This document shows positions 789 through 16,593 of a stretch of DNA of 16,683 nt, piece by piece. A program made the translations under genes and the position numbers. Numbering within the stretch: the stretch's first letter is position 1; the number at the start of each line of letters is the position of its first letter. The notes beneath the pieces were generated by a model. That model saw nothing but the letters and a program-made list of their open reading frames with translations, was not told the origin of the DNA and ran no database searches. The stretch comes from Porphyromonas sp. (lineage in GTDB: Bacteria; Bacteroidota; Bacteroidia; Bacteroidales; Porphyromonadaceae): positions 1-16,683 of the forward strand of contig JASBZJ010000015.1 of assembly GCA_029983495.1 (NCBI GenBank), written 5' to 3'.

Positions 789-1565
789 CTAATCGTTGAA
801 CTCGGAGTACTTATCAGCTCTTCTTCGCGAATCGTTATTACGGCGTTGATCGGGTCGCTTACTTTTGAAGTTCGCATTTTTAGGTCGCGAGGAGTTATTT
901 CGTGAGTTATTTTTCATTCCATCTCGGTTACGGTCGGGGCGTTGTGGACGTGGAGTATTATTAGAACGCTCGCCTTCCCGACTACGGGATGAAATAGAAG
1001 ATGAGGAGGAGCGCGACGAATATCCCGAAGACTTAACCGAAAAATCGGTTGGTTCGAATTCGCTACTCATAAAACCATTGTGATGTTCGGCAACGTTACG
1101 CATAGGTTTTGTAAAGCCTTTTTTCGAGCTTGAGGACTTATTATAACGCCGATTTTGTGAAGAAAAATCGTCCTCATCATCGAATTTTTTAAACTTGGCC
1201 GGTCGTCCTCCACCTTTGGCATTTCGCTTTCCTCCCGTGTAATCGCTTCCCTTACTCGTACGCTGCTTTCGCATCGAGGGACGAGCAAAATTATCGTCGT
1301 CGGTAAGGAAATCATCGTCGGCAAATCGCATTGCAGCAACCTGTTCGGCAATACGCATTTTTTGTTCAGCTGCATACTCGCGAATAATATCTTCAACCGG
1401 GAGTTCCTCGCCATCGAGAAGAACAATGTCGGTTTCTTCAACAACATCGCTCAGTTTTGCGAGTTCGCCGTTAATAGTAACACGGCAATCGGTAATAAGC
1501 TCTTCAACTTCGCGTCGGCTTCCAAGACCCGAATCGCTAAGCAATTTGTTAATACGGATGTTCAT
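789..1565 (-). CDS. S4-domain RNA-binding protein with long disordered basic tail, no catalytic domain
   Basis: A 258-residue protein. Residues 3-50 form an S4 RNA-binding domain (RINKLLSDSGLGSRREVEEL, then VTINGE and a DIVLLDGEEL end), as found at the N-terminus of RluB/RsuA-type pseudouridine synthases. In those enzymes the catalytic domain follows, beginning near a YLLLNKP-like segment. Here the chain instead continues as a charged helix (about 57-85), an acidic patch (DDDFLTDDD) and about 160 residues of Ser-, Asn-, Arg- and Lys-rich low complexity with almost no hydrophobic residues. The catalytic Asp motif is absent. I infer an rRNA- or ribosome-associated binding protein, not an enzyme. 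Its ATG lies inside the end of the glycosyltransferase gene (17-base overlap), which implies translational coupling. Confidence 0.75.
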   Translation of the reverse strand: MNIRINKLLSDSGLGSRREVEELITDCRVTINGELAKLSDVVEETDIVLLDGEELPVEDIIREYAAEQKMRIAEQVAAMRFADDDFLTDDDNFARPSMRKQRTSKGSDYTGGKRNAKGGGRPAKFKKFDDEDDFSSQNRRYNKSSSSKKGFTKPMRNVAEHHNGFMSSEFEPTDFSVKSSGYSSRSSSSSISSRSREGERSNNTPRPQRPDRNRDGMKNNSRNNSSRPKNANFKSKRPDQRRNNDSRRRADKYSEFND

Positions 1566-8860: not shown

Positions 8861-8892
8861 AAATAAAAAATACCCCTTAAAAAAGGAGTATT
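8861..8892 (-). terminator. Strong Rho-independent terminator after the sigma/anti-sigma operon
   Basis: On the minus strand AATACTCCTT pairs with AAGGGGTATT (8883-8892 with 8869-8878) around a TTTT loop. All ten pairs form if one G-U wobble is allowed. A TTTTTTATTT tract follows directly. It lies 28 bases after the stop of the beta-barrel gene and separates that unit from ftsK. Confidence 0.85.
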
Positions 8893-8919: not shown

Positions 8920-10266
8920 TTATTTAGCCAAAGGCATAAAGCGCAACCCAAAGGAAATTGAGAAGTTCAGCGGATGGCTTTTATAATATGTTTTTAGCTT
9001 TGTTCCATCATCGAAATAATAACTTAAACTAGGCGAAGCGTAAAGTGCCAATTGTGGTATTATATCAAAGGCGAACCCACTATGTACATTTACTGATAGT
9101 TGCCAAGGAAGAATATCAAGAGATTTTTGATTTAAACTTGAATACACGGCCTTATCCACAGCAAAATCTGCACCAGCATACAAATTAAACCGCTTGTAGC
9201 GAAATAGCTCTACATCAAATCCAAGGGGAATACCTACATAATGGATGCGCTGTTGCAAGCTTTCTCCGGGGAGGTAATTACTTGCTTTGCTAACTAGCAT
9301 AGTATAACGAATACCCGATTCGATAGAAATATATTTTGTAATAGGAAGCGAAACTCTTGCACCAGCCCGTAATGGCAATGCATGCCTAAAAGTTGTACTG
9401 TTGTACTTTAGCTGTTCATCCTCGTCCGAAGGAATACGCACAAATGGAGGAAGAATATTACGACTTTTCAGGATAAAACCACTTTGCTGAAGGGGTTGGG
9501 TATTGTACCTTGCAAGAGGAACCGTACTTGCTGTAGATAAGGCAAGGGTTTCGAGTACTCTGGTATCGTTATTTATCTCTTGGGCTAAACGAGAATCGTT
9601 AGGTTTGGAGAGTAACTTATTATAGTCATCGGGGAGCTCAACAGTTACCTCGTTATGGTTTGGTGCAACTGTACTTTCGTGCTGTACAAATTCGCTCGTT
9701 GCCATAGCATAATTTATTTCGCTAGCATATAGTTCAATATTTGTTTCCCGAGAGGGAAGAACAATATCCCTTGGAGCTATTGTTTGTAAGAGTGTGCTTT
9801 GCGAGCCATTGTCTGTGCTAACGGTCGTACTTTTACTTTGTGGCGTATTGCTTACCTCTGCATCGTGCGCAGATTTCATCCTATTGAATTCTGAAACATT
9901 CGGAGAGGATAATATTGCCGTTGGGTGCTTAGGTTGAAAAGGAATAGCTGTTTCGCTAGCGTTTTGGATAACAACCTTTGCAATAGTAGGCATGGGTTGT
10001 TGCTTATGCGCAAGTGTGTATATGCTAATTAGCAAACCTGCAACAGTAAGCACACTAGCGGCTACCATAACCATGCGACGAAAATAAACAATGTGGGGCG
10101 TTGCTTTGCCCTTTCCATCGAGTTTTTGCTCAATGCTAACCCATACCTGCTGGAGTTCGTCCGACAACGGCTGCTGAAGCTCTTCTCCTAAATGAGCCGA
10201 GCAACGTTGCTGTATCGAACTAAGCCATGGTTCGAGGGGTGCTTTTGTAGGTTTATTTTTCATCAT
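8920..10266 (-). CDS. Putative dual membrane-spanning anti-sigma factor (cytoplasmic domain, one TM helix, outer-membrane beta-barrel)
   Basis: A 448-residue protein with no cleavable signal peptide. Residues 1-63 are polar and cytoplasmic, with an LQQVWVSIEQKL helix resembling the 'LWxxIExxL' segment common in Bacteroidetes anti-sigma proteins. A basic YFRR then leads into one membrane helix (about 65-87). Residues 88-290 form a Ser/Thr/Asn/Gln/Pro-rich linker long enough to cross the periplasm. Residues 291-448 alternate hydrophobic and polar residues in about eight strands (RAGARVSLP, ISIESGIRYTML, IHYVGIPLGFDVEL, FNLYAGADFAV, LSVNVHSGFAF, LALYASPSLSYYF, FSISFGLRF), as in PorT-type outer-membrane barrels. 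This matches the Dma class from B. thetaiotaomicron, where an outer-membrane sensor controls its cognate ECF sigma. It starts 1 base after the sigma gene stop (ATGATG). The anti-sigma function is inferred from architecture and position. Confidence 0.72.
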   Translation of the reverse strand: MMKNKPTKAPLEPWLSSIQQRCSAHLGEELQQPLSDELQQVWVSIEQKLDGKGKATPHIVYFRRMVMVAASVLTVAGLLISIYTLAHKQQPMPTIAKVVIQNASETAIPFQPKHPTAILSSPNVSEFNRMKSAHDAEVSNTPQSKSTTVSTDNGSQSTLLQTIAPRDIVLPSRETNIELYASEINYAMATSEFVQHESTVAPNHNEVTVELPDDYNKLLSKPNDSRLAQEINNDTRVLETLALSTASTVPLARYNTQPLQQSGFILKSRNILPPFVRIPSDEDEQLKYNSTTFRHALPLRAGARVSLPITKYISIESGIRYTMLVSKASNYLPGESLQQRIHYVGIPLGFDVELFRYKRFNLYAGADFAVDKAVYSSLNQKSLDILPWQLSVNVHSGFAFDIIPQLALYASPSLSYYFDDGTKLKTYYKSHPLNFSISFGLRFMPLAK

Positions 10267-10267
10267 G

Positions 10268-10822
10268 TTATTGGTTATGGTTGTACCATTCGTTTATAGC
10301 CTTGGCAAGAAGCCTCTTAGCTCGTGTTAACTGCGAGGAACTACTTTTTTCGTTTATACCAAGCAACTTAGCAATTTCCTTATGGCTTTTTCCTTCGATC
10401 ACAAATAGTACAAATACGGTTCTATAGCCATCTGGGAGCGATTTAATAAACGATTCAAGAACCTCGCTAGGTAGAGTTTCGAGTTGCTCTTCAGTGGGAG
10501 AAGCAACCTCGCAAGCAACAACTTGCTCATCGTCTAGGGGAACTACAAGGTTTTTACTTTCACGGCGTAAAAACATTAAACACTCATTTGTGCAAAGCCT
10601 CCGTAACCATGCTGCTAACGAACCTTCCCCTTGGTAACGATACTTATTTATATTGTCGTAAATCCTTAGGAAACAATCTTGCAGTAAATCCTTCGCTTTT
10701 TCGTTATCGATAATATATCGACCAATAAGACGGAATAAATCGGGAGCATACAACGAGTAAAGAAGGCTAAAAGCACTACGCTCTCCAGCCTTAACCTTCT
10801 CGCTAAGTTCCTTTTCATTCAC
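10268..10822 (-). CDS. ECF-type RNA polymerase sigma-70 factor
   Basis: A 184-residue sigma factor with only regions 2 and 4, the ECF layout. Region 2 spans about residues 17-87 (FSLLYSLYAPDLFRLIGRYI, the KAKDLLQDCFLRIY core-binding and -10 segment, then SLAAWLRRLCTNECLMFLRR). An acidic linker leads to region 4 (about 122-177), with helix-turn-helix SHKEIAKLLGINEKSSSSQLTRAKRLL for the -35 element. The only sensible start is GTG at 10822, since the nearby ATG at 10818 is in another frame. It begins 3 bases after the lipoprotein stop and ends 1 base before the membrane-spanning partner, so expression is probably translationally coupled. ECF genes next to such partners are normally held inactive until an envelope signal arrives. 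Target genes are unknown. Confidence 0.95.
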   Translation of the reverse strand: MNEKELSEKVKAGERSAFSLLYSLYAPDLFRLIGRYIIDNEKAKDLLQDCFLRIYDNINKYRYQGEGSLAAWLRRLCTNECLMFLRRESKNLVVPLDDEQVVACEVASPTEEQLETLPSEVLESFIKSLPDGYRTVFVLFVIEGKSHKEIAKLLGINEKSSSSQLTRAKRLLAKAINEWYNHNQ

Positions 10823-10825
10823 ACG

Positions 10826-11860
10826 CTAAAGTGGTAGAAATACCAATGGTCCATTGCGAAAGTAACACTTTTTTTCCGTTCTGCCATTGTTATCCCCACT
10901 AAGAATAGTGGCATCATAAAATGGAATGCCTTCACTATCGAGCTTTGCCGTAAATTCTATTTCGAAAGAATGATCGAGAAGTACAAAAGTTAGTTTCTCC
11001 TTTTCGTAATTCTTCGCAGGGTCGAAAGGACCAAATGCAAAAAAGGTATTACCCCAATAACCGCTATTCGAGGTTAAGAAACTCGTTTTTCCACCATAAA
11101 GCGTAAGCTTATTAAGATAGATAGGATCTTTGCCTACTTCGTAATCATCATCATCACCATCTTCATCATAGTAGTCATCGTTATAGTGATAACGCTTGTT
11201 ATTGTACAATACAGCTACACGTTGTTTATTAATGTTTTCGAAGCTGTACTTCGAATTATAACTTGGCACAAAATAAAGAGTTACAGGCAGGTAAGTAGCC
11301 TCATGCCTATTCGAGCCGTAATTATCCCACTTTTTTCGGTCTACAACTAAGCGAATTTGAAATGGGTCTTCGGGATTATTAACGGGTACACCATTAACGG
11401 TTACCGACTTACGTATGTTGGGGTTCGTTCCTTTAGGACTTGCAGTATAAGTAAATCTTACATCGAATTCTCCAATGCCAGGAATTTCAATCTCTATCTT
11501 GGCATTTCTATAATGAGGTTGGAATTCGCCAAAGGTTAGCAAATAAGAACTTTTGCTTCGCTCCAGCGATACCCCCTTATAATATTCGGGAACAGCACGG
11601 AGTTGACGCGCTGGCAAACCTTCGTAACGATAAGTTTCGTCATCCCATTCGAAGGAAATGCTTTTTAGACGCTTATCGCCTTGACGTGTGTTCGGGTCGA
11701 TTAGTGAATGCCCGTCCTGATCGACTATTTCAATCTTTAGCACCTGGCTATTAAAATCCCAAATAAGGGGGTCGTTACCTCCATCGGGGCCAAGAGAACA
11801 TCCACTAATCGTTACCGCAAACAGGAGTAAGAACAAATAATTAACTGATATCTTTTTCAT
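10826..11860 (-). CDS. Lipoprotein of unknown function with an internal domain duplication, first gene of the sigma operon
   Basis: A 344-residue lipoprotein. The signal sequence MKKISVNYLFLLLFAVTISG ends at a lipobox with Cys21 (ISGC). The mature part starts CSLGPDGGND. It lacks the strongly acidic +2 to +6 stretch usual for Bacteroidetes surface export, so it may stay in the periplasm. The rest is beta-rich. Two segments resemble each other: YLLTFGEFQPHYRNAKIEIE...FDVRFTY (about 106-139) and FFAFGPFDPAKNYEKEKLTF...FEIEFTA (about 273-305). This indicates two tandem copies of a domain of roughly 150 residues. Between them lies a Tyr/Asp-rich loop (about 226-241). I do not recognise the family. 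Its place 3 bases ahead of the ECF sigma gene suggests a role in the same signalling system, perhaps as sensor, ligand or regulated product. Confidence 0.8.
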   Translation of the reverse strand: MKKISVNYLFLLLFAVTISGCSLGPDGGNDPLIWDFNSQVLKIEIVDQDGHSLIDPNTRQGDKRLKSISFEWDDETYRYEGLPARQLRAVPEYYKGVSLERSKSSYLLTFGEFQPHYRNAKIEIEIPGIGEFDVRFTYTASPKGTNPNIRKSVTVNGVPVNNPEDPFQIRLVVDRKKWDNYGSNRHEATYLPVTLYFVPSYNSKYSFENINKQRVAVLYNNKRYHYNDDYYDEDGDDDDYEVGKDPIYLNKLTLYGGKTSFLTSNSGYWGNTFFAFGPFDPAKNYEKEKLTFVLLDHSFEIEFTAKLDSEGIPFYDATILSGDNNGRTEKKCYFRNGPLVFLPL

Positions 11861-11898
11861 GTGAAAGTCGTATGGGTCAAAAAAAACAGCTTATTACT

Positions 11899-11952
11899 GA
11901 GGTGGGGAAGAAGGGCTTAAACTTGTTGTGCAAGCCACTTTTCCCCAACCTC
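11899..11952 (-). repeat. Long imperfect inverted repeat (54 bases) in the presumed leader of the lipoprotein-sigma operon
   Basis: The outer arms GAGGTTGGGGAA and TTCCCCACCTC pair perfectly apart from one bulged T. Pairing continues inward through GGCTT/AAGCC with about three mismatches, giving roughly 18 pairs around a loop of about 11 bases. It begins 38 bases upstream of the lipoprotein ATG. On the minus strand a TTTTTTTT run follows, but only after a 12-base spacer, so it is not a standard terminator. It could be a leader structure, an attenuator-like element or half of a small repeat element. Confidence 0.55.
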
Positions 11953-12254
11953 AAAGGGTTATTAGTCCAACCCTTGCATTCGGGCAATTCATCATTTCCA
12001 TGGTTGGTGCAAAAAGTTGATCCATTATAGGAATCTAACCTTCCCAAGGATGACTTTTCGAGGTGTTGGTGTTTATTGGTGCGTATGGTTCCGACATTTA
12101 ATGCCATTCCCCCTTGCGTGAAGCGCAACCAAGAAACCTCTTTATTACAATATTGGGGTTTATGTAGCTCGCCTTTTTCCTATGTTTATTATTGAGGGCT
12201 TATGCAAGATGTCGTTTTACGAATGCGATTCGCTAACCGCTTTCATATAGTAAA

Positions 12255-12285
12255 TGCCCCATACAGCAAAATACTGCATGGGGCA
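12255..12285 (-). terminator. Probable terminator hairpin after nhaD
   Basis: A perfect 8-base stem, TGCCCCAT/ATGGGGCA, encloses 15 bases that add a CAG/CTG inner pairing. On the minus strand only TTTACTAT follows, a weak T-tract, while a TTTTTTT run precedes the stem. It lies about 100 bases after the nhaD stop, the right place for a terminator. The orientation is less certain than for the other terminators here. Confidence 0.5.
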
Positions 12286-13992: not shown

Positions 13993-16593
13993 CTACTTAA
14001 CAACAATTGCTTTAAGTGTATTATCAATAGCTAATAAATAATTACCCTTTGGTAACGATGATATATCGTAGCTTATTGTATCGCCATTTCTCAAAGCTGT
14101 TTTCTTGTTTAGTGTATCTACTAATTCTCCACTTGCAGTGTACAGTTTGATAAGGGTAGATTGGTTCACACCTTGCACATATAGGGTATTATGAACGGGG
14201 TTGGGGTATACCAAAACATTATGGTTATCAACAGAGTAAGTGGCAAGGTTCTCACCTCCATACTCTATTCCGCTTTTTCCCTCCTTTCCATCGCAGTAAT
14301 CCCTAACTTGCCAGCCTTTTTTCGTGATAAACTTAACGTTCTCTTTGGAGCATTTATTTCCCTCTTTTACACTGTAACGTGTATCAACAAGGAACAACGT
14401 AGCTTTATCATCAGGCGAATAAGTTGGTAATGTTTCGAACATTTTACGACAAGCCTCATTGGTAAGTTTATTTGTGTTTACAGCTAGGAACTTTAACTTG
14501 GGCGAATTATCAACTTTAACCGATGTGAGCTTGTTCTGGAAAATATGAAGGAACTCGAGCGATGGTAAGTTGCTAGCATCAATAGATTCGAGCTCGTTCA
14601 TTTGAAAAGCTGCATAGTTAAGGTGCTTAAGCCCCGTTATATTTACATGTTTAAGTTTTCCGTTGGGGCATTTTATATCGGTTAATGTTGCGCATCCACT
14701 AAAGTCGGCATCGTCAAGCTCGGTAGCATAAATGGCAATCTTCCTTATATCGCCTTTAATACGGATTTCCGAATTTACGATTTCGTATTCATTGTAAAAG
14801 CTCCTGTACTCGCTGTCAACCCCCTCAAGTGCTACACCAATGGCATCATCGGGCACTTCGATTCCTATTTTTGTTCCGTTGTTAACACACGATTCTGGTA
14901 CTCGAAGTGTAATTAAACCTTCTCCAACAGTGGGGTTTCCGTTAGCATCGTATCCCTTGTAAGGTTCATAATTCCCATTAACGTAATCATAAACAGTCCA
15001 TCCACGAATATCGGCATTGGCAACATCATTTTTACTGCAAAGAGTAAGCTCGTGCTCGGGCGAAGTCCCTGTCCCCAAGGGAACCAATGTTCCTTTTGCG
15101 TTAAAGGGTCGTATAGGCAAAGAGGCAACAAGAGCCTGAAAACTAGCACGATTAAAATTGTTTTTTCGAATAAGGATTTGACGTAGATTCTTATTCTTCG
15201 CAACACTCAACGCTTCAAGCTTACAGTTCGCAGCATCTAACACTTCCAAGTTTGTGCATCCCGATAAATCCAAACTAGTAATAGGGTTGCTAAAAATCGA
15301 AAGTTCCTTTAATAAAGAATTGCTACTAAGGTCGATAAAGCTAATTGCATTCGTGTTTACATCAAGTGATTGAAGCGATTTACAGCCCCTCAAATCAAGC
15401 GAAGTAATATTTCCTTCCGAACATTCAAAGTGCGTAATTTCACCTTTTATTATAACAGTGCCTTTGGTTAAGGTATACTCATTCCAGCCACTTTTAAAAG
15501 GTTCTTTAGCCCCATCAATTGTTATTGTACCCTTCCCCTTTATAAGTAGCGAAACCTTTGTATCCGTTCGATTACTATGCTTAAAGACCAGTGCATTATC
15601 TATTGGAGTTGGGTTATCGTTATCCAACTCTACAATGTTGGCAAAATCGCCAAATCCTGTAGCATTCTCGTAGGCCACCTTACTGCCTTTAGGAACACGC
15701 AACAACAGCTTCGAAACCTGCATACCACTAAAAGTATTTTCCTGGCAAGTAGGTGGTACACTAGCATAAATAATCATTTCCTTGCACAAGGCAATATCCT
15801 TAAAAGCCATCGCACCAATCGATTTCAGCGTTGAGGGGAATTGAACCTTTTCGATGGCGTTACAACGCCAAAAAGCAGCTCCACCAATTGTTTCTACGCC
15901 CTCAGGGATAACAACTTTGGTAAGCTCGGGATTCGAAAGGAAAGCCATCATGCCAATTTCCTTTAATCCAGTAGGGAATACAATATCTGAAATGTGAGTA
16001 TAAGCAAAAGCTTGTTTGCCAATTGAACGTAATGATTGGGGGAGAACGAGCTTTCCTTCGAGACCAGCCATATAAAAAGCCGATTGCTCAATCGAGGTTA
16101 CGCCATCAGGGAACTGTACGGTACTTAGTTTAGGTGTACCACCAAAAGCAAAAACTCCAATACGTGTTACATCCTTGGGTAAAACAATTTCCTCGAGTGT
16201 TGCTGCACCATCGAACATTTCATCCGAAATAGCATTATCCTCGGTATATAGGTCCTTCGAGGTTTCTTGCGATATACCATATGGGTTACCACCCTTTACA
16301 ATTTTTGCATCCCTAAGGTTCATCTTTTTCAGCGAACCGCCTTCAATCCCCTGCTTAGGAACAGCCTCAGTGGTCATTTCCTTAAGTACAACAATATCAT
16401 TGCCATTTAAAGGTCCCCTAACGGTTAGGCTTTCTATAGCCATATAGTCCGCGCCGAGTGTGCTACGCAAGGTTCCTGCTTGTGAAAGCGTTACCTCGCG
16501 CGATGTTTTTGTTTGCCCACAACGTGCTGTAATTCCAAGGGTTGCAAACAATATGCTTAGTAGCAACCGTAACGAAGTGGTAAATCTTCTCAT
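13993..16593 (-). CDS. Secreted BspA/internalin-like leucine-rich-repeat protein with type IX secretion sorting domain
   Basis: An 866-residue surface protein. A signal peptide (MRRFTTSLRLLLSILFATLG) is followed by BspA-type (TpLRR, LRR_5) repeats at about residues 130-300, with the period of LPKDVTRIGVFAFGG and IPEGVETIGGAAFWRC. Two related modules follow. Each opens with a beta region ending in IxIKGxI, continues with LDLSGC-type leucine-rich repeats, and closes with a CSKxxV...GWxVxDY segment (about 336-540 and 562-768). The C-terminal 80 residues (VLVYPNPVHNTLYV, LYTASGELV, YDISSLPKGNYLLAI, ending IVVK) are a type A sorting domain of the Por/type IX system. It is thus exported across the outer membrane and probably anchored via A-LPS. 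BspA and InlJ relatives mediate adhesion and biofilm formation; that role is inferred here. Confidence 0.92.
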   Translation of the reverse strand: MRRFTTSLRLLLSILFATLGITARCGQTKTSREVTLSQAGTLRSTLGADYMAIESLTVRGPLNGNDIVVLKEMTTEAVPKQGIEGGSLKKMNLRDAKIVKGGNPYGISQETSKDLYTEDNAISDEMFDGAATLEEIVLPKDVTRIGVFAFGGTPKLSTVQFPDGVTSIEQSAFYMAGLEGKLVLPQSLRSIGKQAFAYTHISDIVFPTGLKEIGMMAFLSNPELTKVVIPEGVETIGGAAFWRCNAIEKVQFPSTLKSIGAMAFKDIALCKEMIIYASVPPTCQENTFSGMQVSKLLLRVPKGSKVAYENATGFGDFANIVELDNDNPTPIDNALVFKHSNRTDTKVSLLIKGKGTITIDGAKEPFKSGWNEYTLTKGTVIIKGEITHFECSEGNITSLDLRGCKSLQSLDVNTNAISFIDLSSNSLLKELSIFSNPITSLDLSGCTNLEVLDAANCKLEALSVAKNKNLRQILIRKNNFNRASFQALVASLPIRPFNAKGTLVPLGTGTSPEHELTLCSKNDVANADIRGWTVYDYVNGNYEPYKGYDANGNPTVGEGLITLRVPESCVNNGTKIGIEVPDDAIGVALEGVDSEYRSFYNEYEIVNSEIRIKGDIRKIAIYATELDDADFSGCATLTDIKCPNGKLKHVNITGLKHLNYAAFQMNELESIDASNLPSLEFLHIFQNKLTSVKVDNSPKLKFLAVNTNKLTNEACRKMFETLPTYSPDDKATLFLVDTRYSVKEGNKCSKENVKFITKKGWQVRDYCDGKEGKSGIEYGGENLATYSVDNHNVLVYPNPVHNTLYVQGVNQSTLIKLYTASGELVDTLNKKTALRNGDTISYDISSLPKGNYLLAIDNTLKAIVVK

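Follow-up and report, generated by a model that had tools for sequence, protein, structure and literature searches.

The systems closest to the locus described here are the Das/Dma pairs (Dma1 and Dma2) of Bacteroides thetaiotaomicron and the EcfO-Reo pairs of Phocaeicola vulgatus and Bacteroides fragilis. The former are an extracytoplasmic function (ECF) sigma factor encoded beside a protein made up of an N-terminal sigma-binding segment, one membrane helix, a disordered tether and a C-terminal barrel, in an operon with an extra gene (PMC13088901); the sigma factors of the Dma class belong to group ECF21. Loss of Dma2 in B. thetaiotaomicron raises das2 (log2 4.54) and the neighbouring BT_1557 (log2 6.00), and the Dma2 neighbours BT_1557 and BT_1556 are DUF4943 and DUF4858 proteins, respectively (PMC13088901). 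The anti-sigma factor of EcfO-Reo is predicted to extend from the cytoplasm to the surface, its regulon includes surface lipoproteins, three of them NigD proteins, and antibacterial toxins as well as residence in the mouse gut induce the system (PMC9308784, PMC13114119). With the regulon on, the toxins BcpT and BSAP-3 are partly resisted (PMC9308784). In P. vulgatus one NigD lipoprotein is made in broth only upon Reo loss or stress and its production in mice requires EcfO-Reo, the NigD proteins being termed surface lipoproteins (PMC13114119). The signal of the Dma/EcfO switches and the function of NigD are described as open in these papers (PMC13088901, PMC13114119). In the present study, a three-gene unit on the minus strand (8920..11860) of a 16,683-nucleotide stretch of Porphyromonas sp., hereafter the window, was compared with these systems and with related loci (labelled L) fetched from other genomes (labelled G).

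The three genes probably act as a single envelope-stress unit that induces itself in the manner of Das/Dma (EcfO/Reo), with the lipoprotein mainly as its induced output. They lie head to tail in the order lipoprotein gene (10826..11860; 344 amino acids), ECF sigma factor gene (10268..10822; 184 amino acids) and barrel gene (8920..10266; 448 amino acids), separated by gaps of 3 and 1 bases and followed, after the stop codon of the barrel gene, by a terminator-like hairpin with a T tract (8869..8892, minus strand), which confirms the unit as the sequence-only reading had drawn it. The sigma factor, one base upstream of the barrel gene, could be placed only as ECF.

The barrel gene product is a candidate dual membrane-spanning anti-sigma factor of the Dma/Reo type. 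Its residues 1-63 (10078..10266, minus strand, as are the segments that follow) are presumed to be cytoplasmic and carry conserved Trp14 and Trp42, Trp14 being also invariant in a 20-row alignment. A single inner-membrane helix is predicted at about residues 65-88 (10003..10074) from the structure model and the hydrophobic sequence, the modelled helix covering 57-88, hydrophobic from about 66 and with basic residues in front. It is followed by a long disordered tether, about residues 89-280 (9427..10002), with a predicted local distance difference test score (pLDDT) below 50 over 88-278, and by a predicted C-terminal outer-membrane beta-barrel, about residues 281-443 (8938..9426). The proposed Dma layout thus stands up in its predicted helix, tether and barrel, and the choice set beforehand between a globular C-terminus and a barrel falls on the barrel, so that the Dma reading is not refuted. 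The earlier description of this kind of protein as recent needs a correction: the same kind had been described before as Reo, the partner of EcfO (PMC9308784, PMC13114119), and the link to vesiculation that came with it is reported, in the accessible text, for B. thetaiotaomicron only (PMC13088901).

The pairing of the sigma and barrel genes is conserved. The nearest named relative found for the window is Bacteroidales bacterium KA00251 (L001), whose sigma factor is 59% identical, and the survey of its family covered 38 genomes, including those of L002 and L003 (both Porphyromonas). Of these 38, 17 have a match to the barrel profile, and the sigma gene stands immediately upstream of the barrel gene in all 19 family loci examined (18 by an automatic test; in the 19th, L047, it overlaps a mis-called start). 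In the order Bacteroidales the barrel profile matches 65 of 247 genomes; among 40 of the best 44 matches outside G001, the gene directly upstream matches the sigma profile at 31. The loss of this adjacency in related genomes, named beforehand as evidence against the reading, is therefore not what is seen.

The two-domain lipoprotein has a narrower distribution. It was found in seven of the 38 family genomes (G001, G002, G003, G006, G009, G012 and G023), with lipoprotein matches of one-domain length in 6 more, and is encoded directly upstream of the sigma-barrel pair in six of the seven; in G023 a contig end interrupts the gene, the tail of which still precedes the pair. The lipoprotein-sigma-barrel order is accordingly present in the window, L001, L002, L003, L043, L044 and L045, besides G023 with its contig break, and the spacing between the lipoprotein gene and the pair ranges from -4 to 16 bases (short overlaps or small gaps). 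Family loci lacking the two-domain protein often have another lipoprotein as a neighbour: DUF4840 proteins in G034, G028 and G016, NigD in G033, divergent NigD-like genes near the pair in G014, a short lipoprotein-like gene downstream of it in G030 and, at the two loci of G031, a lipoprotein 141 bases upstream in one and 39 bases downstream in the other. No neighbouring lipoprotein was seen at the G007, G038 and G036 loci, the G036 contig ending just behind the barrel gene.

Across the 40 order loci, a lipoprotein-like gene (at least 150 amino acids, either strand) lies within 500 bp of the unit at 35, compared with 42 of 739 random intervals from the same loci. One of the 35 (L161) was discarded as it resembles a permease. 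Among the remaining 34, with each domain of a protein counted separately, there are 12 NigD_C, 8 NigD_N, 4 related OB domain and 4 LVIVD matches, and one each to DUF4840, CNH (E 0.005) and serpin, while some match nothing. The presence of a lipoprotein gene at most sampled Dma-type loci suggests that induction of a dedicated lipoprotein is a core part of the switch. The partner gene is thus conserved as a lipoprotein, and the class found in the window is clade-specific, its place being taken elsewhere by NigD-like, DUF4840, LVIVD or serpin lipoproteins. At L141 (6578-7813; G181) the immediate upstream neighbour of the sigma-Dma pair, 104 bases away, is a serpin lipoprotein gene, and L134 (5038-8605) holds four genes, for an exported-looking protein without a Pfam match, a lipoprotein, the sigma factor and Dma, with an exact copy of the promoter-like box described below upstream.

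The window lipoprotein itself matches no Pfam family, NigD included, among matches examined up to E 1, and a search of about 5.8 billion proteins returned 10 homologues with 30 to 98% identity. It carries a bacterial lipoprotein signal peptide with lipobox Cys21, invariant in 11 aligned sequences, and two related beta-sandwich domains (residues ~37-176 and 190-344; mean pLDDT 75). The two halves of the protein are related to each other (hhalign probability 75%, E 2.6e-5) and each holds an FGxFxP motif; no convincing relative of the modelled domains was found among solved structures. NigD-like lipoproteins (Pfam NigD_N and NigD_C) are tied to Dma-type loci, but their combination of an OB and a beta-sandwich domain was not found in the window protein, and a profile comparison aligns the two over 28 signal-peptide columns only. 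In G012 (L045, 6792-11006) four tandem two-domain lipoprotein genes lie upstream of one sigma-Dma pair, and each of three has a separate box (2 mismatches in one case).

A promoter-like box, TGCAGTAT-N13-GCATTTA, connects the unit with its probable targets. It was derived by aligning upstream regions, with a spacing of 13 throughout the derivation set, and occurs as an exact match at 12251..12278 (minus strand), 418 bases upstream of the lipoprotein start; it is also present upstream of the homologous operon in L001, L002, L003, L043 and L044 and of lipoprotein genes in L045 and L046. Shuffled windows give a mean of 0.7 sites at up to 3 mismatches, a control that does not cover exact sites. 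With at most 1 mismatch, 14 sites were found in 9 of the 38 family genomes (1 site for the box read backwards); eight of the 14 precede two-domain lipoprotein genes, three precede serpins, two precede exported-looking proteins of G012 and one (G014) has no clear target. In 393 genomes of the order, 12 exact sites were found and none in the backwards control. Eleven of these lie outside G001, and seven of the eleven precede fitting genes: sigma-Dma operons at L174, L175 and L179, lipoproteins at L171, L172 and L180, and a lipoprotein serpin (Pfam E 6e-112) at L181. The L179 site, in G148, had been met before; the other ten were not used for deriving the box, and two of the genomes with exact sites, G202 and G097, had been part of the earlier order survey. 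At L173 (1501-1770; G294) the exact box precedes a short open reading frame whose small product has a single hydrophobic stretch.

The 40 order loci (435 kb) contain 10 sites at up to 2 mismatches, in seven loci. Two are upstream of the sigma gene (by script) and one lies in a mis-called sigma start (L129, by eye); four precede a lipoprotein gene that diverges from the adjacent sigma gene (L129, L130, L131 and L132, by eye), one heads the four-gene operon of L134 (by eye), and the two in L137 are opposite strands of one near-palindrome before a lipoprotein two genes up from the sigma gene. No site was found in the remaining 33 loci; the box in this form is therefore a feature of one branch of these switches and not of all. 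Labels for box-bearing loci are clustered on a tree of 50 sigma sequences: 17 hand-labelled loci require 5 changes compared with 14.4 for shuffled labels, and a simple rule run over the fetched loci (16 labelled) gives 8 compared with 13.8, none of 500 shuffles being as low under either labelling.

A variant, TGCAAGGTT-N12-GCATTTA, was found in the G034 and G028 operons. At up to 1 mismatch it occurs four times in the 38 family genomes (control 0), at the sigma-Dma operons of G028, G034 and G016 (1 mismatch) and upstream of the only serpin of G028, so that operon and serpin of G028 carry the same variant, as a common sigma factor predicts. The family has 8 serpin genes in seven genomes. The box stands at 0 or 1 mismatch upstream of the one in G023 and both in G007 (Pfam E 3e-20 or better, the two G007 genes being cut at the locus edge), the exact variant precedes that of G028, and that of G034 has a box with 2 mismatches; sites with up to 2 mismatches occur in 14 of 3000 random 450-base stretches of the order loci. 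No box was found upstream of the serpins of G001, G004 and G024, and the barrel search gave no match in G004 and G024. Because the box stands before serpin genes in several relatives, their response probably includes the inhibition of proteases. Miropin of Tannerella forsythia is a Bacteroidales lipoprotein serpin, and such serpins lie behind the box or inside a sigma-Dma operon in the relatives; the link rests on predicted regulation in those genomes, and the window has no serpin.

Further features at the 5' end of the unit, namely an inverted repeat, a leader motif and conserved signal-peptide codons, hint at a second layer of control. A 14-pair inverted repeat (12255..12285, minus strand) overlaps the box, and in L002, L003, L043 and L044 an inverted repeat ends right at it (by eye). 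The long leader between box and lipoprotein start (11861..12250, minus strand) has a fold z-score of -1.8, and Rfam gave no match anywhere in the window, leader included. The motif CCAACACACCAACAC recurs in the leaders of L002, L003, L043 and L044, is weak in L001 and was not found in the window by the test used on the relatives. The stretch coding for signal-peptide residues 8-20 (11801..11839, minus strand) is conserved codon by codon, with identical codons in 97 of 122 comparisons compared with 473 of 1167 elsewhere in the gene (counted over residues common to six sequences, leaving out two close pairs; the comparisons are not independent), and these codons are kept between species though the window and L001 lipoproteins are only 44% identical. 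This suggests an element acting at the RNA or DNA level.

In the proposed mechanism, the barrel protein would lie in both membranes and use its N-terminal helices to keep the ECF sigma factor at the inner membrane. By inference from relatives, perturbing the tether or the outer-membrane barrel would release the sigma factor, which may then recognise the box and transcribe its own operon. The first gene of the operon would provide the two-domain envelope lipoprotein, in the slot held elsewhere by NigD-like lipoproteins. By analogy with the Dma2 and Reo experiments in relatives, the window lipoprotein is most likely an induced product in place of NigD. The sequence-only reading had left open whether it is a sensor, a ligand or an output; the output role is the best supported, because the gene lies behind a promoter-like box and is amplified together with boxes in G012.

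Several observations weigh against this interpretation. The two-domain lipoprotein is confined to seven of the 38 family genomes, the box to seven of the 40 order loci, and 4 of the 11 exact order sites outside G001 (L173, L176, L177 and L178) have no fitting gene. The window box is 418 bases from the start codon, compared with 63-191 in relatives. The sigma operon of G007 has only 3-mismatch sites, at -257 and -237, and the single serpin of G001, a genome that has the unit, is a clear exception in having no box. The two short N-terminal helices of the barrel protein have low model confidence, and the regulon evidence comes from genomes of relatives, not from the whole genome of the window organism.

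The low confidence in residues 1-63 could also be taken to mean that the barrel protein is an ordinary outer-membrane protein with its N-terminus a mere anchor, the sigma factor having a different anti-sigma partner. This is very improbable given the sigma gene immediately upstream in every family locus examined, the conservation of Trp14 and Trp42 and the genetic evidence that the relatives Dma2 and Reo act as anti-sigma factors (PMC13088901, PMC9308784). That the box is the site of another, co-controlling regulator and not the promoter of this sigma factor is quite unlikely: its half-sites often both start with TGCA at a distance of about two helical turns, and an inverted repeat lies across or next to it, but the spacing is constant at 13 in the derivation set, the geometry could fit an ECF -35/-10 pair, the presence of the box clusters on the sigma tree and the operon and serpin of G028 share one variant.

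The lipoprotein might instead be a co-sensor: by binding a ligand or the barrel at the outer membrane, it would decide whether the sigma factor is retained by Dma. Its co-encoding in constant order, at -4 to 16 bases, in all seven family genomes that have it would fit such a role, but the tandem copies with separate boxes in G012, its replacement by unrelated lipoprotein families beside similar sigma-Dma pairs and the known membership of NigD in the regulon (PMC13114119) fit an effector better; a co-sensor is thus unlikely, and it is compatible with an output role. A more speculative extension, which we regard as rather doubtful, is a tripwire in which attack by a protease or toxin cuts or disturbs the tether or barrel as bait, the sigma factor fires from the box, the envelope is coated with lipoproteins and a serpin provides negative feedback. 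The coating lipoproteins would differ by lineage (two-domain, NigD-like or DUF4840), with feedback only where a serpin gene is present.

The surroundings of the unit were also examined, with gene names assigned by eye. The unit is flanked by an antiporter-like gene on the upstream side and an ftsK-like gene on the downstream side, and in KA00251 ftsK-, panD- and ffh-like genes follow the unit in the same order as in the window. Elsewhere in the window, 13993-16593 (minus strand) encodes a long leucine-rich-repeat (BspA-like) protein whose C-terminus resembles a type IX secretion sorting domain, and 789-1565 (minus strand) an S4-like RNA-binding domain that runs into a long low-complexity tail and shows no recognisable catalytic domain, both by eye.

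Compared with the described systems, the unit shares with Das/Dma and EcfO-Reo an ECF sigma factor and a predicted cytoplasm-to-surface partner. It differs from Dma2, with its DUF4943 and DUF4858 neighbours, in having a two-domain lipoprotein without a Pfam family as first gene of the operon, and from EcfO-Reo in this other class of lipoprotein and in the box, which ties the relatives of the window to serpins. Switches of this kind are already known; what look new are the class of lipoprotein, the box and the link to serpins. A search of the accessible literature returned nothing on these three, part of which may be in the first Dma (PNAS 2024) or EcfO (2013) paper. A rare 28-base box that marks the promoters of one branch of these switches would make their regulons readable from genomes, and it already points to serpins as outputs of Dma-type switches. 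Such a short control sequence, tying the switch to surface lipoproteins and protease inhibitors, would make its targets predictable in related bacteria and bears on the broader question of what Dma/EcfO-type switches sense and control.

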